Source: a virus
Length of the DNA: 33,238 nucleotides
Direction: 5' to 3' (one strand)
IMG/VR virus record: IMGVR_UViG_3300006751_000067
Location: 1 to 33,238 of that record
Every line of letters begins with the position of its first letter. Positions within the stretch are counted from its first letter, which is position 1. A model generated the notes under the pieces. That model saw only the letters and a list, made by a program, of their open reading frames with translations. It did not search any database and was not told the DNA's origin. Position numbers and translations under genes: made by a program. Below, one piece after another: positions 700 through 30,369 of this stretch.

Positions 700-1233
700 A
701 TGATAAAACTAAAAAATATTTTAGATGAACAACAAAGAATGGTGTCTAAAGCTACAATAGAACAAACTAAAAGCTTTGCTAATGATGTTAAGTCAAAAGG
801 CAAAAAAGCACAACAAATGTTAAGTCAAAAAATTGCAAATAAAATGCAAGTAAAGGGATATACTTTATTTACAAATGGAACTATATCTAAAGTTAAAGTT
901 TCTTATAATCAAGAAGCTGAGTTTAAAACAAGTCCACAAGCGCCTCACTTGCAAGTTGTAATTACAAATAATAAAGGAAAAAGTATATTAGGAAAAAATT
1001 GGAAGCAAAAAGGTCTAACAAAAGCCCAAGGAGGTACAGACTATAGTCCAAATGCAACTGCTGATAGCATAACTGCATATTATATTAAACAATTATTACC
1101 ATGGGTTAATCAAGCTAATAAAAATAATAAAGGAAGTGCTATAGGTATGGAAAATGAAGTAAGAGCTATTTTAAAACAAAGTGGATTAGCTCAATCTATT
1201 GCTAATTTTATTAATAGTTTAAGAACAACATAA
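700..1233 (+). CDS. hypothetical protein with capsid-targeting-like N-terminus
   Basis: A 177-residue protein starting MIKLKNILDEQQ. The first ten residues form a short basic/hydrophobic helix ending in L-D-E, the shape of T4 internal-protein targeting peptides that the prohead protease cuts after L-x-E. The remainder is Lys/Gln/Asn-rich with a basic helix (residues 20-55), a beta-rich centre and a C-terminal helix; there is no recognisable enzyme motif. Residues 110-140 (HLQ-to-LPW region) look globular. The gene starts 45 bp after the previous gene and is followed after one base by the zinc-ribbon gene, so the two are probably co-transcribed. Inference: an internal or head-associated protein. 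Family not recognised. Confidence 0.8.
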   Translation: MIKLKNILDEQQRMVSKATIEQTKSFANDVKSKGKKAQQMLSQKIANKMQVKGYTLFTNGTISKVKVSYNQEAEFKTSPQAPHLQVVITNNKGKSILGKNWKQKGLTKAQGGTDYSPNATADSITAYYIKQLLPWVNQANKNNKGSAIGMENEVRAILKQSGLAQSIANFINSLRTT

Positions 1234-1234
1234 A

Positions 1235-1417
1235 ATGGCACACAAAGTATTCATACGGCACACATATATTTATAAATGTAGTTCGTGCAAGGGAGAATGG
1301 AAAATTAATGAAGCTGAAAATATAGAACATTTAAATTGTCCTCACTGCGGAAAGCATGACACAATAGAATATGTTTTAATAGATCAAAGAACTAAATATA
1401 AAAAGCGATGGAATTAG
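1235..1417 (+). CDS. small zinc-ribbon protein
   Basis: A 60-residue protein with two CxxC knuckles, C15-S-S-C18 and C35-P-H-C38, about 16 residues apart, the layout of a treble-clef or rubredoxin-like zinc ribbon. It is basic at both ends (HKVFIRHTYIYK; KYKKRW), which would suit nucleic-acid binding, but no partner can be named. The start ATG follows the stop of the upstream gene by one base and its own stop is followed after one base by the next ATG, so translation is probably coupled along this cluster. Zinc binding is inferred from the cysteines; the function is unknown. Confidence 0.8.
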   Translation: MAHKVFIRHTYIYKCSSCKGEWKINEAENIEHLNCPHCGKHDTIEYVLIDQRTKYKKRWN

Positions 1418-1418
1418 T

Positions 1419-1790
1419 ATGAAAAAACATATTTTAGCAAAAAATATGAGAAGGTTCAAAACTAAAAATCTAAATGAATCTCCTATGATGGATAGATATC
1501 CAAAAGCGGTAAAAGGAAACCTTATATGGGGACATACATATGAAGTATATCTAGTAAAACCTAATTTAGGTAAAATAAAATTAAACTATATAAAACCTAT
1601 AAAAAATGAAGATGTATATGAAGCTGAAGGACAGAAAGTATTTTTATCAAAAATAAAACAATTTCCTAGAGAAGTTTTAGATAAACATCGCTATAAATTT
1701 AAAAATGGTAAAAAAGTAATAATAGGTGAATGGACAGAAAAAATAGAAAATGAAACTAAAAGATATAAATTAGCATTTAAACTTGTATAA
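1419..1790 (+). CDS. hypothetical protein with tag MRRFKTKNLNES
   Basis: A 123-residue basic protein. Residues 10-21 (MRRFKTKNLNES) are almost identical to residues 8-19 of the next gene (MKRFKTKNLNEQ), although the remainders of the two proteins are unrelated. The shared piece is a basic helix ending in L-N-E, which fits a prohead-protease type cleavage site. I use the ATG at 1419, one base after the previous stop; an in-frame ATG at 1446 would start exactly at the shared tag and is a real alternative. The body alternates basic and hydrophobic residues (beta-rich) with no catalytic motif. Function unknown; packaging into the head is an inference from the tag. Confidence 0.78.
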   Translation: MKKHILAKNMRRFKTKNLNESPMMDRYPKAVKGNLIWGHTYEVYLVKPNLGKIKLNYIKPIKNEDVYEAEGQKVFLSKIKQFPREVLDKHRYKFKNGKKVIIGEWTEKIENETKRYKLAFKLV

Positions 1791-1802
1791 TATATTATTG
1801 TT

Positions 1803-1825
1803 ATATTTATTATTATAAATAGGAT
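1803..1825 (+). promoter_or_regulatory. candidate late promoter (ATATTTAT box plus TATAAATA)
   Basis: ATATTTAT at 1803-1810 is followed by an exact T4-type late box TATAAATA at 1814-1821 and an AGGA at 1821-1825, all within the 41-bp gap before the ATG at 1832. The same ATATTTAT-(4-6)-AAATAGGA arrangement recurs before several other gene clusters in this window. Confidence 0.45.
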
Positions 1826-1831
1826 TATCAT

Positions 1832-2284
1832 ATGAAGAAATTTAAAGAACAAATGAAAAGGTTCAAAACCAAGAACCTAAACGAACAAGATCAACCAATC
1901 GGTACCGATCCATCTATATTTAAAGAATTAGGAGAATTTCTCTTAATGATTGCTGCACCTAAAAAACTAAGTAAGCTTTCACCGGAAATGATAAAAAAGA
2001 TGAAAGATTTAAAAAAAGAAATCGAACAAGGTGGTGCAATTGGTGATGCAATGAAAGGTATGAATGAACAAACATATGATGACCTCAAAAAATTGGCTCC
2101 ACTACCATTTCTCCCACGTCCCCAAGATCTTCAAAACGCCCATAAGCTTCTTATGAAGATCGCGACAATAGGAGCAGAAGAGGTAGGAGAAGATGTATTA
2201 CAAGCTACTGAATTGCTATTGAAGGTTATTAACAAAACGATAGATAAAACAAAACAAGCTGGTGGTGTAATGAAAGGAATGTAA
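1832..2284 (+). CDS. hypothetical helical protein with tag MKRFKTKNLNEQ
   Basis: A 150-residue, mostly helical protein. Its N-terminus (MKKFKEQ then MKRFKTKNLNEQ) repeats the tag of the preceding gene; cleavage after L-N-E (residue 18) would release a body starting QDQPIG. The body has amphipathic helices with many Lys/Leu (residues 40-75 and 95-145) and no cysteine or obvious active site. The start at 1832 is supported by AGGA about 8 bases upstream and the adjacent promoter-like box; an internal ATG at 1853 begins the shared tag. Likely a prohead core or internal protein by context; family not recognised. Confidence 0.78.
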   Translation: MKKFKEQMKRFKTKNLNEQDQPIGTDPSIFKELGEFLLMIAAPKKLSKLSPEMIKKMKDLKKEIEQGGAIGDAMKGMNEQTYDDLKKLAPLPFLPRPQDLQNAHKLLMKIATIGAEEVGEDVLQATELLLKVINKTIDKTKQAGGVMKGM

Positions 2285-2296
2285 TAAATAAAAATT

Positions 2297-2899
2297 ATGA
2301 TAAAGCTAAAAAACATATTATTAGAACAACTTAATGAGTTTCCAACGCCACTACCTGGTAAATATGATCTGAGATTTGAAAAGAGATATAAAGATGGTGA
2401 ACGTGAACCGGAACGCTATGATAATATAGAAGTAACTGCAGAAGATATTAAAGAGTTTGAAAAGAATAAAAGACTCTACCCAAGTTATGATATAACTAAT
2501 CAAGATTTTTGGAATGGTATAGCTAGTGAAATAAGTAGCCATCCTCAAAATAAAATTGCCAGAATTAGAGTAACAATGACTTCAGTAACAAAACCAGAAT
2601 TTGAAATTTATATTGATAGTGTAGATATTGGCAATGTCACAATCACACCTCCAAATAAAACAACTACATATGAGGATTTAAAAGATGATATTAAAGATCA
2701 ATTAGAAGAAGAAGGCGAAAATTTTGTTAAAGCAACAATAGAATGTCGTTGTAGAGTTGATAATAAAGATTATAAATTTCAATTTGAAACTGACGACCCA
2801 GATACAACTGCTGACCACATATATTGGAATAGTGACTCATTTCAACAAGAAACAGGCCTAGACGAGTTTGATGATATAGTAGCTAAATTAACTGCGTAA
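2297..2899 (+). CDS. hypothetical protein with capsid-targeting-like N-terminus MIKLKNILLEQ
   Basis: A 200-residue acidic protein. The first eleven residues MIKLKNILLEQ differ by one residue from the tag of the gene at 700 and are very close to those of the genes at 7916, 10285 and 29827, while the bodies do not resemble each other. The body is beta-rich and acidic, with a CRCR cluster (ECRCRVDNKDYKF, around residue 149) and a C-terminal acidic helix. No membrane segment. It lies 12 bases after the previous stop. The tag suggests cleavage after residue 10 and packaging in the prohead; this is inference. Function of the body unknown. Confidence 0.8.
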   Translation: MIKLKNILLEQLNEFPTPLPGKYDLRFEKRYKDGEREPERYDNIEVTAEDIKEFEKNKRLYPSYDITNQDFWNGIASEISSHPQNKIARIRVTMTSVTKPEFEIYIDSVDIGNVTITPPNKTTTYEDLKDDIKDQLEEEGENFVKATIECRCRVDNKDYKFQFETDDPDTTADHIYWNSDSFQQETGLDEFDDIVAKLTA

Positions 2900-2900
2900 T

Positions 2901-2920: not shown

Positions 2921-2928
2921 TATTTAAA

Positions 2929-3381
2929 ATGTCAAAATTAAAAAAAATACAAAAAAAATATGGAATGTTAACTGAGTCTTATGCGTGGGAAAGACAGGAA
3001 GGTAAACCATTACCAACATTAGCAGACGTTCAAGCTGCATATAATGCTAAACCCATTAATGAACAAGATGTTGAACCTACAGAGATTAATGAACAAGATG
3101 ATGAATCTATAGATATTAATGTGTTAACACATAGCGACTTCAGAAATAATGGCGGACCGGATTTGGATCATGTAACGCAATTATATAAAAAAATGGCAAT
3201 AAAATTGCATCGTCGAGCGAGAAAAAGTGATAATGCAGTAGAAACTATAGATTCTATACAAAAAATGAATAATCATATGCAAAATGTATTACAGTTAGCT
3301 CATAAAGCATTAAATACACAACAAGGAAAAATGGGAGATGGCAGTGAGGATCCAAGTATAGACAATCCTTTAGGCCTATAA
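2929..3381 (+). CDS. hypothetical protein with repeated I-N-E-Q-D sites
   Basis: A 150-residue protein with a basic start (MSKLKKIQKKYGMLTES) ending in L-T-E at residue 16, followed by two copies of I-N-E-Q-D at residues 43-47 and 53-57. All three fit the (L/I)-x-E pattern that T4-type prohead proteases cut, so the N-terminal third could be trimmed into small peptides as T4 core proteins are. Residues 60-120 contain a helical section with basic residues (LHRRARK). Preceded by a promoter-like box. Function not recognised; a prohead core or internal protein is the best contextual guess. Confidence 0.75.
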   Translation: MSKLKKIQKKYGMLTESYAWERQEGKPLPTLADVQAAYNAKPINEQDVEPTEINEQDDESIDINVLTHSDFRNNGGPDLDHVTQLYKKMAIKLHRRARKSDNAVETIDSIQKMNNHMQNVLQLAHKALNTQQGKMGDGSEDPSIDNPLGL

Positions 3382-3390
3382 TTACATTGA

Positions 3391-3585
3391 ATGCCTAAAT
3401 TTATAAAATTACATATTATTGACAAAAATGATACTATAATAATAGATTATGTTAATGTTAATCATATATTAAAAATATATATGAATGATCAAAATGTACA
3501 TGTGAAACTTATTAATCAAGAAATATTAAAATTAAAAGATGAAAATTTAGACGTATTCATGGATCGTTTTTATTTTTCAAAATAA
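3391..3585 (+). CDS. small hypothetical protein, FlbD-like shape
   Basis: A 64-residue protein, nine bases after the previous stop. It reads as four or five beta strands followed by a short helix (ENLDVFMDRF). The arrangement of an opening I-K-L-H strand, a central V-N-V-N-H-I-L-K-I strand and a closing L-x-N-x-E helix is reminiscent of small FlbD-type proteins, but similarity by eye is weak and no function should be assigned. Tight spacing suggests it shares a transcript with its neighbours. Confidence 0.65.
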   Translation: MPKFIKLHIIDKNDTIIIDYVNVNHILKIYMNDQNVHVKLINQEILKLKDENLDVFMDRFYFSK

Positions 3586-3603
3586 TTATTAAAAAAGGAT
3601 GTT

Positions 3604-3786
3604 ATGACGTCAAAAGAAATTTTTGAAACTATGGAAGACCATTGGTTAAATTTCAAAGAAAATCATGATCGGTTTTCAGAAAAAGGAGTTAAAGCTGCAG
3701 CAGTTCGAGCTAGAAAATCTATTAATGAAATAAGAAAATTAGCAAGTAAATATAGATCTACACAATTAGCAGAAACTAAAAAATAA
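3604..3786 (+). CDS. histone H1-like (Hc1-type) DNA-binding protein
   Basis: A 60-residue, mostly helical, basic protein. The central block EKGVKAAAVRARKSINEIRK (residues 26-45) closely follows the pattern of the small Bacteroidota histone H1 (Hc1) proteins, in which an acidic/aromatic first helix precedes a K-A-A-x-R-A-R-K-x-x-x-E-I signature and a basic tail. Such proteins bind DNA without sequence specificity. A purine-rich AAAAAAGGA lies 4-12 bases upstream of the ATG and supports the start. It sits among genes that look like head or internal proteins, so a role in packaged-DNA or host-nucleoid condensation is possible, but that is inference. Confidence 0.72.
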   Translation: MTSKEIFETMEDHWLNFKENHDRFSEKGVKAAAVRARKSINEIRKLASKYRSTQLAETKK

Positions 3787-3789
3787 TAA

Positions 3790-4647
3790 ATGAAACAAAT
3801 TAACGAACATATAATATATAAAACTTTAAATAAATTAATTCTTGAGCAAGAAGAAGGTGATGAAGTAGAAGAACAATCTACCGATGATTCATTTTCGCCA
3901 TTTTCAAAAGAAGAAGAATTATTTTTAGGTAATTTTGATACTCATAAATCAAAAACAATTGGAATATTATATAGTGTGTCTGACATAGGAATTCGTGAAT
4001 TTATTGCAAGAAGTGGAAAAGCATTTAATTGTACTCCGGGGTTACTATTACAATTATTAAAAGATAAAATTATAAAACTTGTTCCAGCTGGTGGATATGG
4101 AAGTGATACTGATTATACTATAGAATTACAACTTTCAGCTGAAGATGTTGAAGGATTAGGAGGAGAACCACCAGAAGTAGGAGGAGGAGAAACACCAGAA
4201 GTAGGAGGAGGAGAAACACCAGAAGTAGGAGGAGGAGAAACTGGAGATATGGGTGGTACTGAGCCACCGCCTGCTCTAGAAGGACCTCCCATGGAATGGG
4301 TAACAAATTATAAAGATATTATTAATGAATCTGTTAATACTGCTAAAAAAATAATTCTCGAACGGAGATCTAAAAAAAAAAGTAAACAAAAACTAGCAGA
4401 TCAAGTTAAAATATATGTTAGTCAATCTAGAACATTACAGCGACTTCCAAAAGAATTTATACATCAACTCAAACGTGTAATAACAATGATGTCAAAGAAA
4501 ACATATAATAAATTAGATCAAGAACGATTAATTGCAGATATTTTAGATACAATGCAACATAATTTTGATTTAACAGATAAACAAATTAGACGATCATATG
4601 AATTTCATAGAAATCAAAAACGATTACAAAAATATTTAAAAAAATAA
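3790..4647 (+). CDS. hypothetical structural/core protein with PEVGGGET repeats
   Basis: A 285-residue protein in three parts. Residues 1-19 (MKQINEHIIYKTLNKLILE) form an amphipathic helix ending in L-E before an acidic stretch, compatible with a cleaved prohead tag. Residues 35-125 look globular. Residues 128-151 are three PEVGGGET repeats followed by a Gly/Pro/Glu linker. Residues 180-285 are a highly basic, helical domain (ERRSKKKSKQK onwards) that could bind DNA or a partner. This acidic-linker-basic layout is seen in scaffold or core proteins, but there is no decisive motif. It begins three bases after the H1-like gene, so both probably share a transcript. Confidence 0.75.
   Translation: MKQINEHIIYKTLNKLILEQEEGDEVEEQSTDDSFSPFSKEEELFLGNFDTHKSKTIGILYSVSDIGIREFIARSGKAFNCTPGLLLQLLKDKIIKLVPAGGYGSDTDYTIELQLSAEDVEGLGGEPPEVGGGETPEVGGGETPEVGGGETGDMGGTEPPPALEGPPMEWVTNYKDIINESVNTAKKIILERRSKKKSKQKLADQVKIYVSQSRTLQRLPKEFIHQLKRVITMMSKKTYNKLDQERLIADILDTMQHNFDLTDKQIRRSYEFHRNQKRLQKYLKK
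4171..4242 (+). repeat. three 24-bp tandem repeats (PEVGGGET)
   Basis: A 24-bp unit coding for PEVGGGET occurs three times in a row, the first two copies identical and the last diverging at its final bases. A degenerate earlier copy (EPPEVGGGE) precedes it. Copy number is likely to vary between related phages through slippage. Confidence 0.85.
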
Positions 4648-4693
4648 TTATAATATATTTTTGAAAATATAATCAAATTTCATATATTATTAA

Positions 4694-4701
4694 TATAAAT
4701 A
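4694..4701 (+). promoter_or_regulatory. TATAAATA box, candidate late promoter
   Basis: An exact TATAAATA lies 23 bases upstream of the ATG at 4725, in a 77-bp gap that follows a gene end. TATAAATA is the T4 late promoter box recognised by gp55; a gp55-like gene is present at 14196. The gap is extremely AT-rich, so chance occurrence cannot be excluded. Confidence 0.4.
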
Positions 4702-4724
4702 AGTTATAAAAAAATAATTAAAAA

Positions 4725-4934
4725 ATGTCATATTACACAGCAAAAGTGCAATTAACGCAATTAATTGACACATCAAAAGGCACTAAAGAAAAAAGTGCAA
4801 CTGAAATCTATCTTGTAGAAGCATTATCTGTAACGGAAGCTGAAGCTAAAGTTATAAATGATTTTAAAGGAGAATCCATGGATTTCGAAGTAAAAGCAGT
4901 AAATTCAAGTAGAATCATTAAAATCATAGAATAA
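4725..4934 (+). CDS. small DUF4494-like protein
   Basis: A 69-residue protein whose layout (an opening strand Y-T-A-K-V, then I-Y-L-V-E-A-L-S-V-T-E-A-E-A-K-V, then a closing strand) matches small Bacteroidota DUF4494-type proteins as I remember them. Function of that family is unknown. It follows a TATAAATA box and its stop overlaps the next ATG by one base (TAATG), indicating translational coupling. Confidence 0.65.
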   Translation: MSYYTAKVQLTQLIDTSKGTKEKSATEIYLVEALSVTEAEAKVINDFKGESMDFEVKAVNSSRIIKIIE

Positions 4935-5209
4935 TGTCATATAAAGCAGGAACAACCGTTATAGTAACTAAAGATGATGTAAATCATGTAGGAGTAGTTT
5001 TAGATCAATTTTCTTTAAGAAAACAAACAATGTATGATGTACTATTAGAAAATAGAAGTGTTATTACAATGTTAAATACATCTAATAATAATAATATTTA
5101 TATTAATCGTACTCTAACTAGAAACTTATGTGAGACTGGAGAAATTACTACTACTATTCCATATAAACATTTAGTTGAAAATAATTTATTACCAGAATTT
5201 AAATCTTAA
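4934..5209 (+). CDS. hypothetical small beta-rich protein
   Basis: A 91-residue protein whose start overlaps the upstream stop by one base. The N-terminal half (GTTVIVTKDDVNHVGVVLDQF then MYDVLLENRSVITML) reads as a small beta-barrel of the KOW/SH3 kind, followed by an Asn-rich turn and a polar tail. No cysteines in motif arrangement and no catalytic residues. Family not recognised; cytoplasmic. Confidence 0.65.
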   Translation: MSYKAGTTVIVTKDDVNHVGVVLDQFSLRKQTMYDVLLENRSVITMLNTSNNNNIYINRTLTRNLCETGEITTTIPYKHLVENNLLPEFKS

Positions 5210-5214
5210 ATTAA

Positions 5215-5850
5215 ATGTATCAAGAATCATTAACTAATATGTTATTGGAAGATAGCGATTATGATAAATTATTACCAAATGACGAAAAATATATGTTACA
5301 TAGTCCGATACCGGTCGGGTATAGTAGTATTTCAGAACAACAATATATTTTTCAAAATTTAATTATAGGTTATGATCCTGAATTATTTACTATTTTAGAT
5401 ATAGGTTCTGGTAGAGGTGATTTATTTGGATTTATCAAACAAATACATAATAATAAAATAATATCATATAAAGGTTTAGATTATAATAAAATAATGTGTA
5501 ATTTAGCAAAAGAAAAATATGATATTAATATACAAAATAAACAATTTGAATCTGCAAAATTAGATACTGCTGATTGGGTTGTTGCTTCTGGATTTTTTAC
5601 TCAACGTAGATTTGATTCCGAAGATAAAGATTTACATAAATTATTCGATGATGTAGACAAAATGTATCAATTAGCTAATAATTGTGTATCATTTAATTTA
5701 TTATCACCTATAGGCAATGAAATTGTAGATGGGTTTTTTTATGTACATCCTGGTTTAGTAATGGATATGTTAATTGAAAAATATCGATATGTAACAATTA
5801 GAGCTAATTATTCAAACGACGTATATACAGTAACAATTTATAAATTTTAA
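5215..5850 (+). CDS. class I SAM-dependent methyltransferase
   Basis: A 211-residue protein with a clear motif I, I-L-D-I-G-S-G-R-G-D-L at residues 60-70, followed by an acidic residue closing strand 2 (KGLDYN) and a strand 4 region (ADWVVASGFFTQR). This is the Rossmann-type fold that binds S-adenosylmethionine. The substrate cannot be read from the sequence; there is no DNA-methyltransferase [DNS]PPY motif, so small-molecule, protein or sugar methylation is more likely than base methylation. Residues 1-12 (MYQESLTNMLLE) end in L-L-E and weakly resemble the capsid tags seen elsewhere here. Start is five bases after the previous stop. Confidence 0.78.
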   Translation: MYQESLTNMLLEDSDYDKLLPNDEKYMLHSPIPVGYSSISEQQYIFQNLIIGYDPELFTILDIGSGRGDLFGFIKQIHNNKIISYKGLDYNKIMCNLAKEKYDINIQNKQFESAKLDTADWVVASGFFTQRRFDSEDKDLHKLFDDVDKMYQLANNCVSFNLLSPIGNEIVDGFFYVHPGLVMDMLIEKYRYVTIRANYSNDVYTVTIYKF

Positions 5851-5863
5851 TTAAAAAAAACAT

Positions 5864-6250
5864 ATGACAAGTAGTATTAATCACCCTTGGGGGATATCTA
5901 AAAAAATGAGAGAAAAAATGGGAGAAACATGGGCGGACATGGATTTTAGTATTAATCCTAGACTATCAACCCATAATATGCGTGAAGATTTAATAAACCA
6001 ACCAGTAGGAATTTTATATTTAGCTAATACAAATATTAAAATGAAATATAAAGAATTATTATCTATTAGTAAATCTTTAAAAAAACATGTTAATAATAGT
6101 TATAATGCATCTATAGAAGATAAATTTCCAATTGATATCAATACACATACATTTCTTTTAAATAAAAAAGAAATAGAACGATTAGAAGAAACAATTAACA
6201 TAACAACCACTGCTCTTATAAGAAAATATGAGTTAGGTTTATATTTATAA
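5864..6250 (+). CDS. hypothetical protein
   Basis: A 128-residue protein starting 13 bases after the methyltransferase. It has a polar N-terminal region (HPWGISKKMREKMGETWADM) and a mostly helical C-terminal half with a coiled-coil-like LLNKKEIERLEETI segment near residues 86-100. No membrane segment, signal peptide or catalytic motif is visible. I do not recognise it. Position in a tight plus-strand cluster suggests co-expression with the methyltransferase. Confidence 0.65.
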   Translation: MTSSINHPWGISKKMREKMGETWADMDFSINPRLSTHNMREDLINQPVGILYLANTNIKMKYKELLSISKSLKKHVNNSYNASIEDKFPIDINTHTFLLNKKEIERLEETINITTTALIRKYELGLYL

Positions 6251-6255
6251 TAAAG

Positions 6256-6450
6256 ATGGATACTTATACATATTCATATAGAACAGATTCAAAAAAAGAA
6301 ATAATAGGTCGTGTACAAGCTATAGATCTTTTCGAAGCTCAGATAAAGGTAGCAGTAATTAAACAATTATCAAACCAAGACACGATACAATTATTTGAAA
6401 TAAATAAAGCTGTTAAAAATGAAAAGAACGTTAGAACATATCAAAATTAA
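6256..6450 (+). CDS. small hypothetical protein
   Basis: A 64-residue protein five bases after the previous stop. The pattern of an initial strand (TYTYSYRT), then I-I-G-R-V-Q-A-I-D-L-F-E-A-Q-I-K-V-A-V, resembles in outline the small DUF4494-like protein at 4725 (strand, then a helix in which A and E alternate), so it may be a distant relative; this is weak. Its last 32 bases overlap the next gene in another frame. Confidence 0.55.
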   Translation: MDTYTYSYRTDSKKEIIGRVQAIDLFEAQIKVAVIKQLSNQDTIQLFEINKAVKNEKNVRTYQN

Positions 6451-6868
6451 AGATGCGGAATTTAATTATTTTATAACGCTATCTCCGTCTGATCAATTAA
6501 CATATTTTTTTGAATTATATGAAGCTGAAAAAAATATGCAATCTGGAAATGTTAATTTAAAACAATTTTTTAATAATATTAAAGAAGCATTAATTAATAG
6601 AGAAGAAGATTCAATTGAAATTGATTTATCAAAAAATACAATACCAGAAAATTATAATCTAGTAGATATATTAATTGATGATAAACGTATCATGATTGAA
6701 TCTGATAGTCTTTCTGCTATTAGAAAAGTAATACGAAAATTTATAGAATCTGGATATGTAATGTCCCGGGACCATAAATTAGAAAAATTATTTAAACGAG
6801 ATAAAGTAACAAGATATATGAGAGTGTTTAAAATTATACATCACGGCTCATGTTTTAGTTACAATTAA
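6419..6868 (+). CDS. hypothetical protein
   Basis: A 149-residue protein whose ATG lies inside the preceding gene (32-bp overlap, different frame). It is largely helical with a central beta portion (NLVDILIDDKRIMIESDSL) and a basic C-terminus (KLFKRDKVTRYMRVFKIIHH). No motif identified. The next possible Met would truncate most of the first helix, so the overlapping start is preferred. It ends 84 bp before the Hsp20 gene, where composition changes. Confidence 0.65.
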   Translation: MKRTLEHIKIKDAEFNYFITLSPSDQLTYFFELYEAEKNMQSGNVNLKQFFNNIKEALINREEDSIEIDLSKNTIPENYNLVDILIDDKRIMIESDSLSAIRKVIRKFIESGYVMSRDHKLEKLFKRDKVTRYMRVFKIIHHGSCFSYN

Positions 6869-6877
6869 TATATATTA

Positions 6878-6898
6878 TTGAGATACGGTAGGTCTCAA
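6878..6898 (+). other. hairpin between gene end and hsp20 leader
   Basis: A 6-bp stem TTGAGA/TCTCAA encloses a 9-base loop, 10 bases past the stop of the upstream gene. There is no U-run after it, so it is not a standard intrinsic terminator. Its loop and right arm contain GGTAGGTCTC, the left copy of the inverted repeat that flanks hsp20, so this hairpin and the long-range pairing are mutually exclusive. Confidence 0.4.
6887..6896 (+). repeat. left arm of 10-bp inverted repeat flanking hsp20
   Basis: GGTAGGTCTC here is the exact reverse complement of GAGACCTACC at 7360-7369, directly after the hsp20 stop. The two copies bracket the whole hsp20 transcription unit. Confidence 0.7.
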
Positions 6899-6913
6899 AT
6901 TATTTATAACACC

Positions 6914-6930
6914 GGTTAGCTTAAGCAACC
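6914..6930 (+). other. hairpin in hsp20 leader
   Basis: GGTT-A-GC / GC-AACC pairs around a TTAA loop with one bulged A, ending 9 bases before the AGGAGG ribosome site at 6940-6945. AACC (6927-6930) could alternatively pair with GGTT at 6944-6947 and partly cover the ribosome site. Small heat-shock genes are often controlled by leader RNA thermometers, but this pairing is short, so the idea is tentative. Confidence 0.3.
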
Positions 6931-6951
6931 ATTAAACACAGGAGGTTTATT

Positions 6952-7353
6952 ATGACACAATTTATCAATGATTTTGATTTAGTTTTCAAAAACTTTTTCG
7001 ATCAAAAATCCCGTTTCCAATCAGTCTACGGAAACAAAATGAATTACCCAGTAGATATTTATATTAAAGACGAAGACGGAATTGTCTTTGATATCGCAGC
7101 GGTAGGTTTAACTCAAGACGATATAGAAATATTAACAGAAGGCGAAACACTGCGTGTACGCCACGAACGGACAGGTGCTGATACTAGAGATTATATCCAT
7201 AAAGGCATAGCACGTAGGGCGTTCGATTTCGCTTGGAAAATATCTACCGATTTAGATTTATCTAAAACAAAAGCAACCATGGTAGATGGTTTGCTTAATA
7301 TATTTATTCCTTATGCATATGAACGTGCACCTAAAAGAATAAAAATTAATTAA
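6952..7353 (+). CDS. Hsp20-family small heat-shock protein
   Basis: A 133-residue alpha-crystallin-domain chaperone of the IbpA/Hsp20 family, as found in many T4-like marine phages. The domain spans about residues 33-123: opening strand YPVDIYIKDEDGIVFDIAAVG, the turn D-D-I-E-I, and the closing A-T-M-V-D-G-L-L-N-I-F-I-P block at 108-120. The C-terminus ends in I-K-I (130-132), the I-x-I anchor used for oligomer assembly. It would hold unfolding proteins, perhaps virion components, without ATP. Unlike almost all genes nearby it has a textbook ribosome site, AGGAGG, 6 bases before the ATG, richer G+C codons, and 10-bp inverted repeats on both sides, which together suggest acquisition as a unit. 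Confidence 0.9.
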   Translation: MTQFINDFDLVFKNFFDQKSRFQSVYGNKMNYPVDIYIKDEDGIVFDIAAVGLTQDDIEILTEGETLRVRHERTGADTRDYIHKGIARRAFDFAWKISTDLDLSKTKATMVDGLLNIFIPYAYERAPKRIKIN

Positions 7354-7359
7354 TCCAAC

Positions 7360-7369
7360 GAGACCTACC
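7360..7369 (-). repeat. right arm of 10-bp inverted repeat flanking hsp20
   Basis: GAGACCTACC on the plus strand, exact reverse complement of 6887-6896, beginning 7 bases after the hsp20 stop codon. Could pair with the left arm in RNA (circularising the message ends) or mark a cassette boundary. Confidence 0.7.
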
Positions 7370-7382
7370 AAATCTTTTAATT

Positions 7383-7895
7383 ATGAAACAATATAAAAAA
7401 ACACCTAAAAATATAATTAAACAATTTAATCGGCCGCAATTTAAAATAGGAGATTATGTTTACTTTTCTTTTTTAGGATCTAAAAATGAAGGTTATGTTA
7501 AAAAAATTACTACGCAGAATTGGGGAGTACAGTATACGGTTGTTGCGGAATCTTATGGGAAGACGTACAAATACCCATGCGGAATCGACATTAAAGGATA
7601 TAAAACTTCTTACCACACCGGATGTGTCTTCCGGGAAGAATCTAAAAAACTTCTTAAAGACAAAAGAAGGCCAATTATTGAAGGCGGAGATGACAATAAA
7701 AGCCGGAGAAGAGATGTTAATGGAAATAGCTCTGAGGTTGCAACAAGCAGAAACAATGCCGGAAAAAATGTTAATGAGTCTAGCTCTACACGAATTTGCG
7801 ACAGCAGTACAACGAAGCAACGAGATAATAGAGAGCTTAAAGATGCCATCCAAAAGCAAAAAGATTTCCTAAACGGGTTTGTGAAAAAAGATTAA
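7383..7895 (+). CDS. hypothetical protein with KOW-like N-terminal domain
   Basis: A 170-residue protein. Residues 18-85 (K-I-G-D-Y-V-Y-F-S-F-L-G-S to Y-H-T-G-C-V-F) read as a small beta-barrel of the KOW/SH3 type common in phage accessory proteins. Residues 95-145 are Asn/Ser/Arg-rich and look disordered; the last 25 residues (ELKDAIQKQKDFLNGFVKK) form a helix. The disordered part overlaps a second open frame (7690-7872), and the whole block is less AT-rich than its surroundings. Codon third positions favour this frame over the other only mildly. Function unknown. Confidence 0.7.
   Translation: MKQYKKTPKNIIKQFNRPQFKIGDYVYFSFLGSKNEGYVKKITTQNWGVQYTVVAESYGKTYKYPCGIDIKGYKTSYHTGCVFREESKKLLKDKRRPIIEGGDDNKSRRRDVNGNSSEVATSRNNAGKNVNESSSTRICDSSTTKQRDNRELKDAIQKQKDFLNGFVKKD
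7690..7872 (+). CDS. possible nested overlapping gene (+1 frame)
   Basis: In the +1 frame relative to the host gene an ORF is open from 7486 to 7872. Its last 60 residues, from the ATG at 7690 (MTIKAGEEMLMEIALRLQQ...), look like a genuine protein: amphipathic helices, Met/Leu/Glu-rich, no low-complexity, whereas the same DNA in the host frame codes an apparently disordered Asn/Ser linker. A GAAGGCGGAG stretch abuts the ATG, too close for an ideal ribosome site. G+C at third codon positions is higher in this frame, which argues against it. Alternatives: a longer form from 7486, a sequencing indel that split one longer gene, or a fortuitous ORF. Confidence 0.4.
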   Translation: MTIKAGEEMLMEIALRLQQAETMPEKMLMSLALHEFATAVQRSNEIIESLKMPSKSKKIS

Positions 7896-7915: not shown

Positions 7916-8722
7916 TTATTTATTATCAACACCGGTATAATTGAGTATAGTATTCCATAAATTAGGTTTATCATCTTTAATATGAATATCTTTTTCTTTT
8001 GGATATAATGAATCTAAATATACTGGAAATGATTCTTTAATTTTTTCTTTTACTATCCCCGGATCTCCCCTTAAGGTTTTTCCGTCTATATCTTTAAAGA
8101 AATGAAAATAACAACTATCGGTACTAGTAGGATCTATAGAAATGTGGTGGTGGTTACCTTTTGCTGAATCAGATGGTTTTTTATATTCGTTAATATAAAT
8201 TATAGTTACATCCGGGTTTTCGTATATATATTTTGCAATTGCATTTTCCATTTGTAGTTGTGAATCATCTGATGCTTTTCCTTCTTGTACAAAATCAATC
8301 GCAAAGCCACGCGTATGGTCACTTTCGTAGTTTAAACAACGATGAAATGCATCATCACCCCCAGTAAGTTCTATTTTCCCATAATAGTTGTTTTGTATGC
8401 CGTTTACAACTTTTAAGGTTGATAATATATTAGTGTAATTAACAGGTTTAGTTCTCCAATCAGTACTTCCTGGATATGCATTTGCAATTGCAGCTGCAGA
8501 TATTATTTCAGAATAATCTGTTTCAAGTGCTAAATATTTTAATTTTCTACCGTTATCAGGATGGTTGTACCATTTTTTTATTTTTAAAATTTGTTTTGCA
8601 AACCTTCTCTTATATTTAATAAACATTCCTTTAGATCTAGCATAATTATGTATTGATTTTATCATATCTACATTATACAGTATATCTTGTTGTTCTAACA
8701 GTAAGTCTTGTAATTTTATCAT
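7916..8722 (-). CDS. M15-type peptidoglycan peptidase with capsid-targeting-like tag
   Basis: A 268-residue protein. Residues 131-143 contain S134-x-H136-x-x-G-x-A-x-D143 and residues 191-193 H-H-H supply the H-x-H; this is the zinc-binding pattern of the M15 (VanY / D-Ala-D-Ala carboxypeptidase / L-Ala-D-Glu endopeptidase) family, which cuts peptidoglycan cross-links. Residues 1-11, MIKLQDLLLEQ, match the tag on the genes at 700, 2297, 10285 and 29827 rather than a signal peptide. A lysis endolysin is one possible role; the tag instead suggests a virion-packaged enzyme. It is one of only two minus-strand genes here, convergent with 7383-7895 and divergent from the exported-protein cluster. 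Confidence 0.82.
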   Translation of the reverse strand: MIKLQDLLLEQQDILYNVDMIKSIHNYARSKGMFIKYKRRFAKQILKIKKWYNHPDNGRKLKYLALETDYSEIISAAAIANAYPGSTDWRTKPVNYTNILSTLKVVNGIQNNYYGKIELTGGDDAFHRCLNYESDHTRGFAIDFVQEGKASDDSQLQMENAIAKYIYENPDVTIIYINEYKKPSDSAKGNHHHISIDPTSTDSCYFHFFKDIDGKTLRGDPGIVKEKIKESFPVYLDSLYPKEKDIHIKDDKPNLWNTILNYTGVDNK

Positions 8723-8732
8723 ATATAATATA

Positions 8733-8855
8733 AATATTTGGATAATAGAAATTAATTATATATTATAGTTATATAAATAATTAAATACTTAACCAATGAA
8801 AAAAACCATTTTAATCACAGCAGCTATATTCATAGCTACTCAACTATTTTCTCAA
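8733..8855 (+). repeat. promoter plus signal-peptide direct repeat, copy 1
   Basis: Bases 8733-8855 and 9277-9399 (offset 544) are near-identical copies covering an AT-rich leader and the signal peptide codons. Bases 8748-8803, including TATAAATA, the leader and the start codon, match perfectly over 56 bp; the signal peptide codons that follow diverge moderately. The unit precedes two different genes. Confidence 0.88.
8772..8779 (+). promoter_or_regulatory. TATAAATA box, candidate late promoter
   Basis: Exact TATAAATA 16 bases before the ATG at 8796, inside the perfectly conserved part of the duplicated leader. An identical copy is at 9316-9323. Conservation of the box and spacing in both copies supports function. 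Confidence 0.5.
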
Positions 8856-9269
8856 ACTATAAATAATATTACTATTACTTATAATAACACAAAAATATAC
8901 ACCGCGTTTGGAGAAAATATTAATATCAATAAAATAATTTCTAAAAAATATTTAAATACAACAATACCAAATAAGCCAGGTATTGCAACAAGAACATATG
9001 ATATTAAAAATATGAAATGTTATTTTAAATTAGATACCAATGAAAATAATGTTAAAGATATCGTGAAATTTGAACAATTATCAAATGGAATTATTCATAT
9101 TGTAGTTGAAGAACCAAATGCTTTATATGAAGATGAAAATATATATACACATCAATATATAGATAAAAATAAAAATACTAGTATTTATTCATGGAAATGG
9201 AATGAAGGCACTGATTTTACAAGTTCTTTTGCAGTTAAAGCAATTAATCCGAAAATTTTATTAAAATAA
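8796..9269 (+). CDS. exported protein, paralogue A
   Basis: A 157-residue protein with a Bacteroidota-style signal peptide (MKKTILITAAIFIATQLFSQ; cleavage probably after FSQ at residue 20), so it should be sent to the periplasm or surface of the host. The mature part is beta-rich and Asn/Ile-rich and aligns along its whole length with the next gene: N-I-T-I-T-Y-N near the start, D-I-V-K-F-E, N-G-I-I-H-I-V, a T-H-x-Y-x-D segment, and the closing N-P-K-I-L-L-K. No cysteine follows the signal, so not a lipoprotein. Function unknown; phage-coded exported proteins often alter the infected cell's envelope. Confidence 0.8.
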   Translation: MKKTILITAAIFIATQLFSQTINNITITYNNTKIYTAFGENININKIISKKYLNTTIPNKPGIATRTYDIKNMKCYFKLDTNENNVKDIVKFEQLSNGIIHIVVEEPNALYEDENIYTHQYIDKNKNTSIYSWKWNEGTDFTSSFAVKAINPKILLK

Positions 9270-9276
9270 GTTTAAT

Positions 9277-9399
9277 AATATTTGGATATATGAAATTAAT
9301 TATATATTATAGTTATATAAATAATTAAATACTTAACCAATGAAAAAGACAATTTTATTCCTCGCAGCTATATTCATAGCAACACAAGTTTTTTCTCAA
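9277..9399 (+). repeat. promoter plus signal-peptide direct repeat, copy 2
   Basis: Second copy of the unit described at 8733-8855. It lies between paralogues A and B and supplies the B gene with its own TATAAATA box (9316-9323), leader and signal peptide. Confidence 0.88.
9316..9323 (+). promoter_or_regulatory. TATAAATA box, second copy
   Basis: Exact TATAAATA 16 bases before the ATG at 9340, part of the duplicated leader. Confidence 0.5.
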
Positions 9400-9810
9400 A
9401 GTGTAGAAAAAATAACAATCACTTATAACACCGTAGATTTATATAATAATATCGGAAATGTTAACACTTTAGAGCTTTTAAAAGAAGAACCTTATACTAA
9501 AAATTTAGGTCCCGAAAAAGCTAAAAGAGTTATTGATCTAAGAAATATGTCTGCTTATTTTGTTTCAGATGCTGTAGAAGCAATAACTGTCGATATCGTT
9601 AAATATGAAGTATTAGAAAATGGTATCATACATATTGTTTGTGATGAACGAAATATTTTATATCCAGAAGAAGATAATGTTAGAATATTCACTCACACCT
9701 ATGTTGATATAAAAAATAATCTTAGTGTGTATTCCTATGTATGGGGTGATGAATTTTATTCAGAAACATTTGCTAATAAAGCGGTTAATCCGAAAATTGT
9801 TTTAAAATAA
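9340..9810 (+). CDS. exported protein, paralogue B
   Basis: A 156-residue exported protein, signal peptide MKKTILFLAAIFIATQVFSQ. The mature part is clearly homologous to paralogue A (shared K-I-T-I-T-Y-N, R-x-x-D-x-R/K-N-M, V-D-I-V-K-Y-E, E-N-G-I-I-H-I-V, a T-H-T-Y-V-D segment, and N-P-K-I-V-L-K end) but considerably diverged, while the DNA upstream of the start is unchanged. This contrast points to either strong conservation of the expression element or repeated gene conversion of it. No functional motif visible. Its stop is only 8 bases from the next start, so the third gene probably shares its transcript. Confidence 0.8.
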   Translation: MKKTILFLAAIFIATQVFSQSVEKITITYNTVDLYNNIGNVNTLELLKEEPYTKNLGPEKAKRVIDLRNMSAYFVSDAVEAITVDIVKYEVLENGIIHIVCDERNILYPEEDNVRIFTHTYVDIKNNLSVYSYVWGDEFYSETFANKAVNPKIVLK

Positions 9811-9817
9811 TTAATCA

Positions 9818-9877
9818 ATGAAAAAGACACTTTTAATTCTCGCAGCTATATTCATAGCAACTAATTTATTCTCTCAA
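9818..9877 (+). repeat. signal-peptide repeat, copy 3 (coding part only)
   Basis: The first 60 bases of this gene repeat the signal peptide codons of the two upstream genes, including a 23-base identity with copy 2 in the middle of the signal, but lack the upstream promoter half of the repeat. Confidence 0.8.
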
Positions 9878-10279
9878 GATTTAGATTCATTACTCAATAA
9901 AACTATTAATGATGTTAATAAAGTTTTTATAGATAATGGCGAAGAACCAATAAAAATTGATAATGGTGTTTTTAAAAGAGCTGCAGAAGACGATTTAAAA
10001 TCTTGGGAACAAGATAAAAAATATGTTGCAGATTTAATTGAATTTTCTGAAAAACATGGTGTTGTAATTCCATATATTAGATTTGTTAGTGGTCCTAATA
10101 AAGATGAGTTGGTAACCAAAATAGTAAAAGTTATTAATGATGGGCACTTTAAAACATCTTCAAGATCATTAGATTTTGGATTTGCTATAACGACGAATGG
10201 ATATTATTATTATATTAATATCGTAATTGGTTATCCAGGTGATATTAAGAAAACTTGTTATTATAATAAATCAATGTAG
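9818..10279 (+). CDS. exported protein, same signal peptide, unrelated body
   Basis: A 153-residue exported protein. Its signal peptide MKKTLLILAAIFIATNLFSQ is nearly the same at DNA level as those of the two upstream genes, but the mature part (DLDSLLNKTINDVNK onward) does not align with them. It is helical in the first half and beta/Tyr-rich at the end (NGYYYYINIVIGYPG). No separate promoter box is duplicated in front of it; it follows paralogue B by 7 bases. It ends 5 bases before the end of the convergent minus-strand gene. Function unknown. Confidence 0.78.
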   Translation: MKKTLLILAAIFIATNLFSQDLDSLLNKTINDVNKVFIDNGEEPIKIDNGVFKRAAEDDLKSWEQDKKYVADLIEFSEKHGVVIPYIRFVSGPNKDELVTKIVKVINDGHFKTSSRSLDFGFAITTNGYYYYINIVIGYPGDIKKTCYYNKSM

Positions 10280-10284
10280 TTATT

Positions 10285-11529
10285 TTATTTCGAGGCAACA
10301 CATCTACCTTTAACGGTCCATATGGTGCCTCTTAATGGAGGAAATGCTAAAAATTGTACCGGTTTGTCATCATGATTATTTTTAATAATAGTTTCTGTGC
10401 TTTTTTGAGTTCTACCCCATCCACCTGCAACACCAGCTTTCCACTCTCGTAGATATTTTGCCTTTTTGTTTTCTTTGACGGACCTCCAGTTCAGAAATAT
10501 GTCTTTATATTGTTCTATGGTGGCAATTACGGTATCGTAATTTGGCATTACATCGATAGCTGTAACCGGGCTTCCTCCGATGCTTGTAATTTGAGTATTA
10601 ATATGACCTAGTAGATTATGTCTTTGCATTAAATATGCAATTTCAACAGCAAATCTTCTGTTCCATTTCCAACTCCAATTAATACCATAATATCCTAATC
10701 GTTTCATTTCCTTGGTTTGATCACTGGATCCTATTACCATCCCAGAACTGTATTCTGCGCCATTGAAACCACTAAAAAATTCATGATCTCCATACTTTAC
10801 AAAATATGCATCTGGAATAGTAGCTATTGTGCCTCTAAAGCGCATGGAATCATTAACATCTGCACTAAAAGTCATTTCTTCAGATTTCCAAGTATATGGC
10901 GGGTCTGCAGCTCGTCTTTGTTTATCTGAACCCCAATTAAATGTGCACCTTATTTCTGGAACTGGTTTTTTATCATCGGGCAAATCTCCAGTTGTTTTAA
11001 TAGTCGCAGATGCAGATCTAGTAGTTCCAATTGATGAATTAATTTTCATCGGAAGCATTTCTACAAGCTTCGAGCCTATTAAACGCGTTTCAGTACCTTT
11101 TGAATCTTTGACTATCCAATTATTTTTCTGAATAAGGCTAATAATATAGACATATAAACTTTCAGCCCGAGCATAAGCTAATTTTTCATTATCAGCTTTA
11201 GCATTCGCTTCGCCCCCTATAGGTATTGCATTAGCTGCCCACTTTTGCCCATGTCTTCCTTGTTTCCAATAAGTCTCTATCATTTTAGTAGTTAAAGGCG
11301 AAATTGTTGCAACAGCATTAATTGTTAATTGATGTTTCATATTAGCATATTTTCCTGACGCTAATGCAATCTTTAACGGTTGTAGTGCTTTTAATATTTG
11401 TTGTTCAGCACCCGGAACATCGTTTGGATGAGATGCACCACTAGGATATTGTAAATCTATTCCTGTTATAGTTAAATTTAATCCAGCCGGCGTTGCTTGT
11501 TCAGATAAAAGAGATGTTAATTTAATCAT
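10285..11529 (-). CDS. OmpA-like-domain protein with capsid-targeting-like tag
   Basis: A 414-residue protein starting MIKLTSLLSEQ, the shared tag with a possible cut after S-E (residue 10). Residues 13-150 follow the order of an OmpA-C type peptidoglycan-binding fold: strand (TGIDLQYPSG), helix (AEQQILKALQPLKIAL), strand (QLTINAVATISP), and N-E-K-L-A-Y-A-R-A-E-S-L-Y-V-Y-I, which matches the N-x-x-L-x-x-x-R-A-x-x-V signature. The remaining 260 residues are Trp/Lys-rich and unrecognised. There is no signal peptide, so if it binds peptidoglycan it must arrive in the virion or after lysis. Pairs with the tagged M15 peptidase gene, also on the minus strand. Confidence 0.7.
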   Translation of the reverse strand: MIKLTSLLSEQATPAGLNLTITGIDLQYPSGASHPNDVPGAEQQILKALQPLKIALASGKYANMKHQLTINAVATISPLTTKMIETYWKQGRHGQKWAANAIPIGGEANAKADNEKLAYARAESLYVYIISLIQKNNWIVKDSKGTETRLIGSKLVEMLPMKINSSIGTTRSASATIKTTGDLPDDKKPVPEIRCTFNWGSDKQRRAADPPYTWKSEEMTFSADVNDSMRFRGTIATIPDAYFVKYGDHEFFSGFNGAEYSSGMVIGSSDQTKEMKRLGYYGINWSWKWNRRFAVEIAYLMQRHNLLGHINTQITSIGGSPVTAIDVMPNYDTVIATIEQYKDIFLNWRSVKENKKAKYLREWKAGVAGGWGRTQKSTETIIKNNHDDKPVQFLAFPPLRGTIWTVKGRCVASK

Positions 11530-28151: not shown

Positions 28152-28168
28152 CGGATTTAATTTAATCA

Positions 28169-28176
28169 ATATTTAT
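28169..28176 (+). promoter_or_regulatory. candidate late promoter box
   Basis: ATATTTAT followed by AATAGATAC, 24 bases before the ATG at 28201, in the 49-bp gap between the two related fibre genes. Confidence 0.4.
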
Positions 28177-28200
28177 AATAGATACAATTAAGTTTCTATT

Positions 28201-29826
28201 ATGCCAGAATCTAAAATAGTAAATACCGAAGATTTAAAACGAGGGCTATATCCATCAGTTTTTAAAAAAATTGATCAGTCTGATGTTAAAGTTAATCCTT
28301 TTTTAGCTCATAAAACATTTACTGTTTTATCTGGTAGTTCAACAAGTAGTTTATTACCATTGCATGGGGTTTATACAAATACAAAAAATTTACCAGCAAT
28401 TGGTTCTGAATTAACATATAATGACGCAAAAAATATTGATGGAAGTTTACAATCAATTACATATTTTTCAATTAATCATTTATTTTATAAAAGAAAAAAT
28501 CAACCTAGTAATATATTTGGCTTTACAAATTTAAATAAAACAAAAAGAGCTTTATTTGAAACAGCTTCTATATTTTCAATACCACAAAAAAATATAGGTG
28601 ATCGAATTAAACATGGATCGTTTAATATAACTGCATCAAATTCTGCATTATATGGAACAGCTATATATGGTGGATCAGTATATGGTGATTCTACACTTTT
28701 AATTAGTAGTGACCGATATGGTAATTTAATTAATAGTAATTTTCTTACACAGTCAATAGTTACTGGAGAACAGTATTATGAAGGATTTAATGAATATTTT
28801 GATACTTCAAGAATTTTATATAAATCATCAAATATTTCATATGTAAAAGGAATAACTACTAATTCGGGACTAACCCAATCATTAGGTTATGCGGCAAACT
28901 TTGCCGGCAATGGATATATTTCTACTGATATTAATGGATTATATAATCGAGATAATGATTATTGTATATCAATGTTTATATCGGGAGCAAATTCAACTTC
29001 TAATAACGAACTTATTTTAACAAAAGCATCTAGTTCGGCTAGTCCACAATATCCATTTAAATTAGAATTATCAGGTAGTAATCAATTAATATTTTCTGCT
29101 GCTGGTTCTCATGAATATATTGCTCAAATTACATCATCTACTTCTGTTACTGAATGGACTCATGTTGTTTGTCAAAAAACAGGTAGCTCATTAGAAATGT
29201 ATTTAAATGGAACTTTACATTCATCTATTTCTTCTAATTTACTTAAAGTACACGCATCTCCATTTACCGCTTCTGCTAGAATTGATAATAAAGATCCGTT
29301 ATATATAGGAGGATTTAGTCAAACAAATTATTTAGAAGGAAAATTAGACGAAATACGTATTTTTGAAAAAGCTTTAAATAGTACAAAAATTGGATATTTA
29401 GGAGATCGGAGTGAAACTGGATCTTTATTACAAACAAAATATGTTGGTAATATTTTTCATGAACAAGGTATTGGTATAATATCAACTCCTGATTATAGAT
29501 TTCATGATTTAATTAATATACCATATACCGCTAGTTATAAAAGTACAAAAACAATTAATGAATTAAATGTAATTACTAGAATTGAGAAAGGTGATTTTAA
29601 TATGTCATCTAATAAAACATTAACTAATGATGACGATATAACATATAAATCATTTGTATCAAGTAGTGATTTTTCTCCATATATTACTACAATTGGTTTA
29701 TATAATGATGCCGGTGTATTATTAGCAATTGCAAAACCAGCTCAAGCTATAAGAAAACGGCCGGATGTAGATATGAATTTTGCAATACAAATAGATTTAG
29801 ATAAAAATATAACATTTAAAGGATAA
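28201..29826 (+). CDS. tail/fibre protein with LamG domain, shared C-terminal module (B)
   Basis: A 541-residue protein. Residues 220-400 form a clear LamG/concanavalin-like sandwich: A-N-F-A-G-N-G-Y-I-S-T at the start, E-W-T-H-V-V-C-Q-K-T-G-S-S-L-E-M-Y-L-N-G in the middle and L-D-E-I-R-I-F-E-K-A-L at the end, the three hallmarks of the fold. These domains bind glycans or proteins. The last 85 residues match the C-terminus of the preceding gene (Y-I-T-T-I-G-L-Y-N-D-x-x-x-L-L-A-I-A-K). It is the best candidate here for a receptor-contacting fibre. The next gene starts right after its stop. Confidence 0.8.
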   Translation: MPESKIVNTEDLKRGLYPSVFKKIDQSDVKVNPFLAHKTFTVLSGSSTSSLLPLHGVYTNTKNLPAIGSELTYNDAKNIDGSLQSITYFSINHLFYKRKNQPSNIFGFTNLNKTKRALFETASIFSIPQKNIGDRIKHGSFNITASNSALYGTAIYGGSVYGDSTLLISSDRYGNLINSNFLTQSIVTGEQYYEGFNEYFDTSRILYKSSNISYVKGITTNSGLTQSLGYAANFAGNGYISTDINGLYNRDNDYCISMFISGANSTSNNELILTKASSSASPQYPFKLELSGSNQLIFSAAGSHEYIAQITSSTSVTEWTHVVCQKTGSSLEMYLNGTLHSSISSNLLKVHASPFTASARIDNKDPLYIGGFSQTNYLEGKLDEIRIFEKALNSTKIGYLGDRSETGSLLQTKYVGNIFHEQGIGIISTPDYRFHDLINIPYTASYKSTKTINELNVITRIEKGDFNMSSNKTLTNDDDITYKSFVSSSDFSPYITTIGLYNDAGVLLAIAKPAQAIRKRPDVDMNFAIQIDLDKNITFKG

Positions 29827-30369
29827 ATGATACGACTTAAAAATATATTAAATGAATTATCTGAAGATGAAATGAATAGATTAGTGGATAAAATTTCAAA
29901 TAAACAATTTACGTTTTTTGATAAAGGAGATAATGGTCGAATATATACAATTAATGGAGAAGATAAAATTTTTAAAATAACTACAGAATCAGAAGAATAT
30001 AAAGTAGCTGATATAATAGTAGGAAAAAAAGATTTATATACATCATTTATTCCAGTTCATTATGTAGACGGAAAAAATATGTATATAATGTCAAAAGCAG
30101 AATCAATAAACAGAAATGAAATAAATGAAATTAATAATTTTTTAAATGGATTTAAAGATTTTGCTAAAGAACACGGAGGAGAAGTTTCGATATTTGATTA
30201 TCTAGATGCAGAAGGCGCACGAGATAATAATGAACAAATTGTTAATTTTTTACGAGCATTACAACAAGATATACAACGTATTGGATTACCTGACTTAGAT
30301 TTAGATTTAGATTTTAAAGCTGATAATGTTATGAGATGGGATGGTAATTTAGTAATGATTGATTGGTAA
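29827..30369 (+). CDS. minimal protein-kinase-like protein with capsid-targeting-like tag
   Basis: A 180-residue protein beginning MIRLKNILNEL, matching the shared tag (cut possible after residue 10). The rest follows the kinase-fold order: Gly-rich loop G34-D-N-G-R-I-Y, strand-3 lysine K50 (I-F-K-I-T), helix-C-like E-E-Y-K-V-A, a hinge-like M-Y-I-M-S-K, then the catalytic-loop pattern D162-F-K-A-D-N167 and a final I-D179-W at the DFG position, where the protein ends. Upstream H of H-R-D is missing and there is no activation segment or C-lobe remainder, so it is a minimal aminoglycoside-kinase-like or atypical protein kinase, active or pseudo. Tag plus fold suggests an injected kinase. It starts directly after the LamG fibre stop. 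Confidence 0.75.
   Translation: MIRLKNILNELSEDEMNRLVDKISNKQFTFFDKGDNGRIYTINGEDKIFKITTESEEYKVADIIVGKKDLYTSFIPVHYVDGKNMYIMSKAESINRNEINEINNFLNGFKDFAKEHGGEVSIFDYLDAEGARDNNEQIVNFLRALQQDIQRIGLPDLDLDLDFKADNVMRWDGNLVMIDW

Follow-up and report, generated by a model that had tools for sequence, protein, structure and literature searches.

Why should nine proteins with unrelated bodies, encoded on both strands of one viral fragment, begin with much the same short sequence? The question is raised by the IMG/VR record IMGVR_UViG_3300006751_000067, analysed here over its whole length of 33,238 bases (the window), which carries a T4-like baseplate/tail block and whose head genes fall outside the fragment. 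The original prediction had listed nine open reading frames (ORFs, named here by their lowest coordinate) with a basic/hydrophobic N-terminal helix followed by L-x-E, and had read this tag as a capsid targeting sequence of the kind found in phage T4. All nine were present at the positions given, on plus and minus strands, each with its helix ending in (L/I)-x-E, with corrections to the details of three N-termini: ORFs 1419 and 1832 start slightly upstream (MKKHILAKNMRRFKTKNLNE and MKKFKEQMKRFKTKNLNE) and that of ORF 3790 reads MKQINEHIIYKTLNKLILE↓Q (the arrow marks the junction after the tag). Our analysis of the sequences leads to the same answer: these proteins very probably share a removable capsid targeting sequence like those of T4.

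The tag is 10–20 residues long in the window. The exact spacing M-x-x-Φ4-x-x-Φ7-Φ8-x-E10 occurs in five of the 46 window ORFs, whereas shuffling of residues 2–16 gives 0.07 on average (p=0.0005), and none of the 128 internal Met positions fits a similar pattern. In two further ORFs (1419 and 1832) the module is (N/Q)M(R/K)RFKTKNLNE. The tags of 2929 and 3790 are longer variants that differ in spacing and do not fit the strict pattern, and homologs support both. Relatives join the 2929 body to a short tag (MIKLKSILNE↓GYAWEREEGKPLPTLAD, versus MSKLKKIQKKYGMLTE↓SYAWERQEGKPLPTLAD in the window), and homologs of 3790 (G002, G007, L222, L256 and others) keep a helix of variable sequence that ends in (L/I)xE↓(Q/A). 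Identical tag residues use differing codons, both between tags and within the family of ORF 29827, so the tag is kept at the protein level. A literature search on the tag letters gave no match. A methyltransferase-like ORF at 5215 (MYQESLTNMLLE) was considered as a tenth tagged protein and ruled out, its homologs being untagged. Conserved ORFs beginning like MSPELVxxLV(E/D) or M(N/T)IDxILTEW, and gene 17235, a baseplate neighbour with amphipathic helices and several LxE, match only a loose pattern and were not counted as confident cargo.

The T4 system provides the calibration. There, the capsid targeting sequences of IPI, IPII, IPIII and Alt and the propeptide of gp24 are cut by the protease gp21 (PMC9026906; PMC3012670). 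These internal proteins, Alt and gp24 are cleaved head proteins, gp21 cutting after L/I-x-E, and the first 10 residues of IPIII are enough for targeting, with positions 4 and 7 serving targeting and positions 8 and 10 processing (PMC9026906). Applied to T4, the exact spacing finds IPII (MKTYQEFIAE↓A), IPIII, Alt (MELITELFDE↓D, a match that appears with the annotated start), gp24 (MAKINELLRE↓S) and the small gene 61.1; our ORF caller takes the first ATG, and some true starts are missed. The protein of gene 61.1 (NC_000866, 18966–19130), annotated as hypothetical, starts with MKTFKEFIKE↓D and, because this N-terminus resembles the IPII/IPIII targeting sequence, may be an overlooked internal head protein.

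The window block is collinear with large uncultured contigs of 160–169 kb (G002, G005 and G006) and, more distantly, with Microcystis phage Mel-JY01 (PP395634) and Flavobacterium phage immuto (NC_055915). Independent large genomes are few, since G001–G003 are nearly one phage and so are G004–G005. Exact-spacing tags number 11 in G002, 13 in G005 and 8 in G006, where 0.4–0.5 are expected, and about 14–17 tagged proteins in each by our own count once variants are included. The counts elsewhere are 5 in Mel-JY01, 4 in immuto, 4 in T4, 3 in RB49, 2 in KVP40, 1 each in HTVC008M, RM378 and T5, and 0 in S-PM2, SPO1 and phiKZ (248 of 280 kb scanned). The high count is therefore lineage-specific, and the number and diversity of tagged proteins, which had been called unusual, are so indeed: 8–13 exact-spacing tags per genome of ~160 kb, compared with 4 in T4.

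The strongest single evidence comes from ORF 29827, whose homologs were gathered by whole-protein homology without selection for the tag. Among 37 distinct homologs R3, L4 and E10 are invariant, positions 7 and 8 are only L or I, and positions 6 and 9 are highly variable; Leu and Arg codons vary synonymously. Positions 4, 7, 8 and 10 are thus constrained, in agreement with the mutagenesis of T4 IPIII. Even the immuto ortholog, only 30% identical, still has M1 and E10. The body of this family contains kinase-like motifs (GDNGRVY ... LDLDFxxDN(V/I)M ... (I/V)DW), and the top 14 fold matches of a low-confidence model (pLDDT 60) were kinases or aminoglycoside phosphotransferases, with a best E of 0.029 that is not significant; no match to kinases was obtained in Pfam, NCBIfam or PDB sequence searches.

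Cleavage after the Glu calls for a prohead protease somewhere in the genome, as had been pointed out from the start. A fragment without head genes cannot show one, and the relatives do encode it: a peptidase of family S77 was found in 8 of the 8 relatives of at least 38 kb, in both named phages (Mel-JY01 and immuto, by Pfam PF03420) and in all five contigs of at least 75 kb that carry the bipartite tag described below. Aligned to T4 gp21, the relatives' protease conserves the stretches GEL(D/N)HP and G(I/V)SSRG, and their Gp23 capsid proteins have QLVKE↓A/S, QLISE↓A or QIVSE↓A where T4 gp23 has FLTE↓A. With both the protease stretches and the (L/I)xE↓(A/S) site of the capsid protein kept, the cleavage rule appears to be conserved in these relatives.

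A second form of the tag is bipartite. N(I/L)LAE↓NMRRFGTKNLxE and its variants were found in one scan on at least 65 distinct proteins of at least 38 body families, never internally among the matches listed, and the tag of ORF 1419 aligns with many of those from viral contigs. We found no published description of LAE↓NMRRFGTKNLxE, and a short-peptide tblastn search for it against 50,697 named phages returned nothing. The total over all the sequence gathered is 212 distinct tagged proteins, whose bodies fall into 79 unrelated families; seven of these families contain both kinds of tag. In the clear cases of a swap the homology of the bodies reaches as far as the E in either tag, in register 0 or -1 (e.g. 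E↓DxDQNNNGYPD, E↓(A/V)GKFYKGS and E↓(N/S)EESDKxFAEY, among others); a larger set of pairs, in register 12, combines two bipartite tags of which one has diverged too far to fit the pattern. Selection for a removable tag would be expected to fix the junction in just this way, at the putative cut site. The spacing, the constrained positions, the relatives' protease and capsid site, and these swaps right after the E together bear out the capsid targeting reading.

Two further modules were seen beside the tags. In immuto (NC_055915: 1803, 103806, 117631 and 118632) another bipartite tag, (F/L)L(V/T)E↓NKLTxNSKLLxE, has a second half of 12 residues whose best copies share N1, K8, L10 and E12 with NMRRFGTKNLxE; it was found in immuto phages only. 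A third module, D-x-D-Q-N-N-N-G-Y-P-D-x-(S/T)-E, stands right after the tag in many different tagged proteins (in L219, L224, L237, L250, L261, L319, L322 and at G006:61342), and its sequence resembles the calcium-binding loop of an EF-hand or a dockerin.

Tagged ORFs and cargo islands of the window, with the position of each tag
Feature	Position	Strand	Tag (position)	Remarks
Cargo island A	700..2899	+		four tagged genes; adjoins conserved genes 2929–7895
ORF, 177 aa	700..1233	+	MIKLKNILDE (700–729)	then Q; island A
ORF, 123 aa	1419..1790	+	MKKHILAKNMRRFKTKNLNE (1419–1478)	bipartite type, first LxE lost, second kept; island A
ORF, 150 aa	1832..2284	+	MKKFKEQMKRFKTKNLNE (1832–1885)	second module alone; island A
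ORF, 200 aa	2297..2899	+	MIKLKNILLE (2297–2326)	then Q; island A
ORF, 150 aa	2929..3381	+	MSKLKKIQKKYGMLTE (2929–2976)	long tag; body SYAWERQEGKPLPTLAD
ORF, 285 aa	3790..4647	+	MKQINEHIIYKTLNKLILE (3790–3846)	long helical tag, then Q; syntenic in relatives
Cargo island B	7916..11529	mixed		two minus-strand tagged genes flank three plus-strand genes; borders are conserved genes 7383 and 11794
ORF, 268 aa	7916..8722	-	MIKLQDLLLE (8722–8693)	then Q; island B
ORF, 414 aa	10285..11529	-	MIKLTSLLSE (11529–11500)	then Q; island B
ORF, 180 aa	29827..30369	+	MIRLKNILNE (29827–29856)	conserved family with kinase-like motifs

The collinearity of the window with its relatives breaks at two main places, and these are the two cargo islands, which sit at fixed places and differ in content between phages. 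The island A bodies have no relatives in G002, G005 or G006, and that of ORF 700 has no homolog in Mel-JY01 or immuto either; ORFs 2297 and 7916 lack homologs in the large relatives. Scans of viral contigs with peptide patterns found no homologs of 2929, 7916 or 10285, and those of 2929 came up in blastp among the collected loci. At the place of island B the relatives have other tagged genes (87031 and 87353 in G002; 26128 in G005; 126312, 127511 and 128935 in G006), likewise opposite in strand to the backbone, which explains the occurrence of tags on both strands. Within the window's island B (8796–10279) lie three ORFs in tandem whose N-termini are nearly identical and resemble signal peptides (MKKTILFLAAIFIATQVFSQ), a form typical of secreted proteins of Bacteroidota that hints at the host. 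The middle part of ORF 3790–4647 holds an in-frame short tandem repeat (GGGETPEVGGGETPEV), likely a flexible linker.

A strand-specific sequence, WTATTTATA, stands ~20–35 bases before portal-like, sheath, tube, baseplate and tagged genes of G002, G005 and G006, and 28 bases upstream of ORF 2929 in the window (at about 2901). Its core, TATTTAT, precedes 26 of 52 tagged genes and 109 of 634 others (p=2.8e-7); for the longer form the difference reaches only p=0.049. Near-identical genes shared by the relatives somewhat inflate these figures. We regard WTATTTATA as a candidate late promoter. Being common to tagged and virion genes, it suggests, by correlation, that tagged genes are expressed late, together with the head.

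As to what is carried, the labels 'peptidase', 'OmpA-like' and 'kinase-like' given to window bodies by the original prediction were not significantly supported by sequence searches of Pfam, PHROGs, NCBIfam or the PDB. Motifs resembling peptidase M15 can be seen by eye in ORF 7916 (AIDF, GNHHHIS) and are unconfirmed, with no profile or PDB match; its single-sequence AlphaFold model (pLDDT 39) was of no use. Window bodies gave no Pfam or PHROG match to the IPI, IPII, IPIII or Alt families either, so that, as far as can be judged from sequence, the system works like the T4 internal proteins with cargo bodies that are not theirs. Confident domains were found on tagged proteins of the relatives: Phage_lysozyme, Phage_lysozyme2, Peptidase_M23, LysM, GDSL lipase, DUF5872 and DUF6934. 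In Mel-JY01, a protein of the capsid cluster (PP395634, 22429–23595) starts with the T4-like tag MYEYVEYILE↓K and shows by eye motifs like those of ADP-ribosyltransferases (YRA, YVSTT, ESE) with no profile match; it would parallel T4 Alt, its identity as an ADP-ribosyltransferase being unconfirmed.

Several observations sit uneasily with capsid targeting. No gp21 was found in a search of the window alone, so the phage's own protease is unseen, a null result that is uninformative because the window has no head genes. The residue after the tag E is often Q, D, M or I, compared with A, S or D at the T4 sites. S-PM2 and HTVC008M have the protease and show no excess of tags, so the two are uncoupled in some T4-like phages. 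Lastly, some tagged proteins are peptidoglycan hydrolases, which are unexpected as head cargo. The Phage_lysozyme2, M23 and LysM cargo would suit tail-associated enzymes, and several tagged genes, 29827 included, adjoin tail genes; one might thus see in the tag a docking helix for another part of the virion (tail, baseplate or neck), with E10 structural and no cut site. Yet the constrained positions are those of targeting and cleavage in T4, and docking alone does not predict exchange exactly after the E, which leaves this explanation improbable.

Even less probable, in our view, is that the tag acts independently of the virion and sends proteins to a target in the infected cell (a membrane, a host factor or degradation). 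Membrane binding would be feasible for a short amphipathic helix, but the spacing is that of known T4 head proteins, the LxE is conserved, and the sequence upstream of the tagged genes resembles that of virion genes. Moreover, among the phages compared, SPO1, T5 and phiKZ, in which PF03420 finds no S77 protease, are without a tag excess (T4, RB49, KVP40, HTVC008M, RM378 and S-PM2 have the protease). The position of the tag, always at a start codon, and the recombination implied by the exchange islands would also fit a DNA- or RNA-level element, such as a translation enhancer or recombination site, that happens to encode a peptide. Such readings are rejected as scarcely credible because synonymous codons vary: identical residues are encoded by different codons, and positions 6 and 9 drift while L4 and E10 do not.

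The likeness to the T4 capsid targeting sequences extends to the N-terminal propeptide of 10–20 residues with hydrophobic or aromatic residues at 4 and 7, L/I/F at 8 and E10, to the unrelated bodies, to the S77 protease and to the (L/I)xE↓(A/S) site of the capsid protein. The tag itself differs, being rich in K/R and L (MIRLKxLLxE) where T4 has MKTYQEFIAE, and peptidoglycan hydrolase cargo is a further difference. What is new relative to T4 is the scale, the second 12-residue module NMRRFGTKNLxE of the bipartite tag, and the cargo islands: this lineage appears to tag about fifteen proteins, with cargo freely swapped, versus a handful in T4. In phage P1 the head likewise takes up DarB, and a reporter fused to it, by virtue of an N-terminal signal, but BLAST found no common consensus among the Dar proteins (PMC9024508). 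The giant phages phiKZ and SPN3US also eject many proteins, and a diverged gp21 homolog cuts after the Glu of a short motif; several of their propeptides, however, exceed 100 residues, and SPN3US has A-x-E as its motif (PMC5694885). In phiKZ, as counted above, the tag pattern is not in excess.

If the tag is a capsid targeting sequence, a tagged protein would, late in infection, attach to the scaffolding core while the prohead assembles, using the hydrophobic side of its N-terminal helix (residues 4 and 7), and be enclosed together with the core. Cleavage after (L/I)-x-E by the gp21-type protease during head maturation would release the mature protein into the head interior, from where it would enter the next host along with the DNA. 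By analogy, most of the tagged proteins are probably delivered to the host in this way, where they might act against host defences or in host take-over. The injected proteins of T4 include the restriction inhibitor IPI and the host-polymerase modifier Alt. Because targeting needs only 10–20 residues, any gene that gains a tag would become cargo, and the lineage would have built its exchangeable islands in this manner.

The doubled tags (LAE↓NMRRFGTKNLxE) would offer two cuts. It is conceivable, though we hold it rather doubtful, that NMRRFGTKNLxE and the NKLTxNSKLLxE of immuto are a second sorting signal, with a released peptide of its own or for head cargo specific to a place or time. The whole would then be a two-step delivery of multiple effectors from dedicated, replaceable islands, with a dozen or more proteins per particle, among them cell-wall hydrolases and a kinase-like protein.

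Should capsid targeting hold, the tag would serve as a reading key by which dozens of 'hypothetical' phage protein families become a definite set of candidates for injection, with exact mature N-termini that could be predicted. Phage heads could also be loaded with proteins by means of such new, compact tags, and T4-like phages could deliver proteins on a far larger scale, and exchange them far more readily, than T4 itself does.

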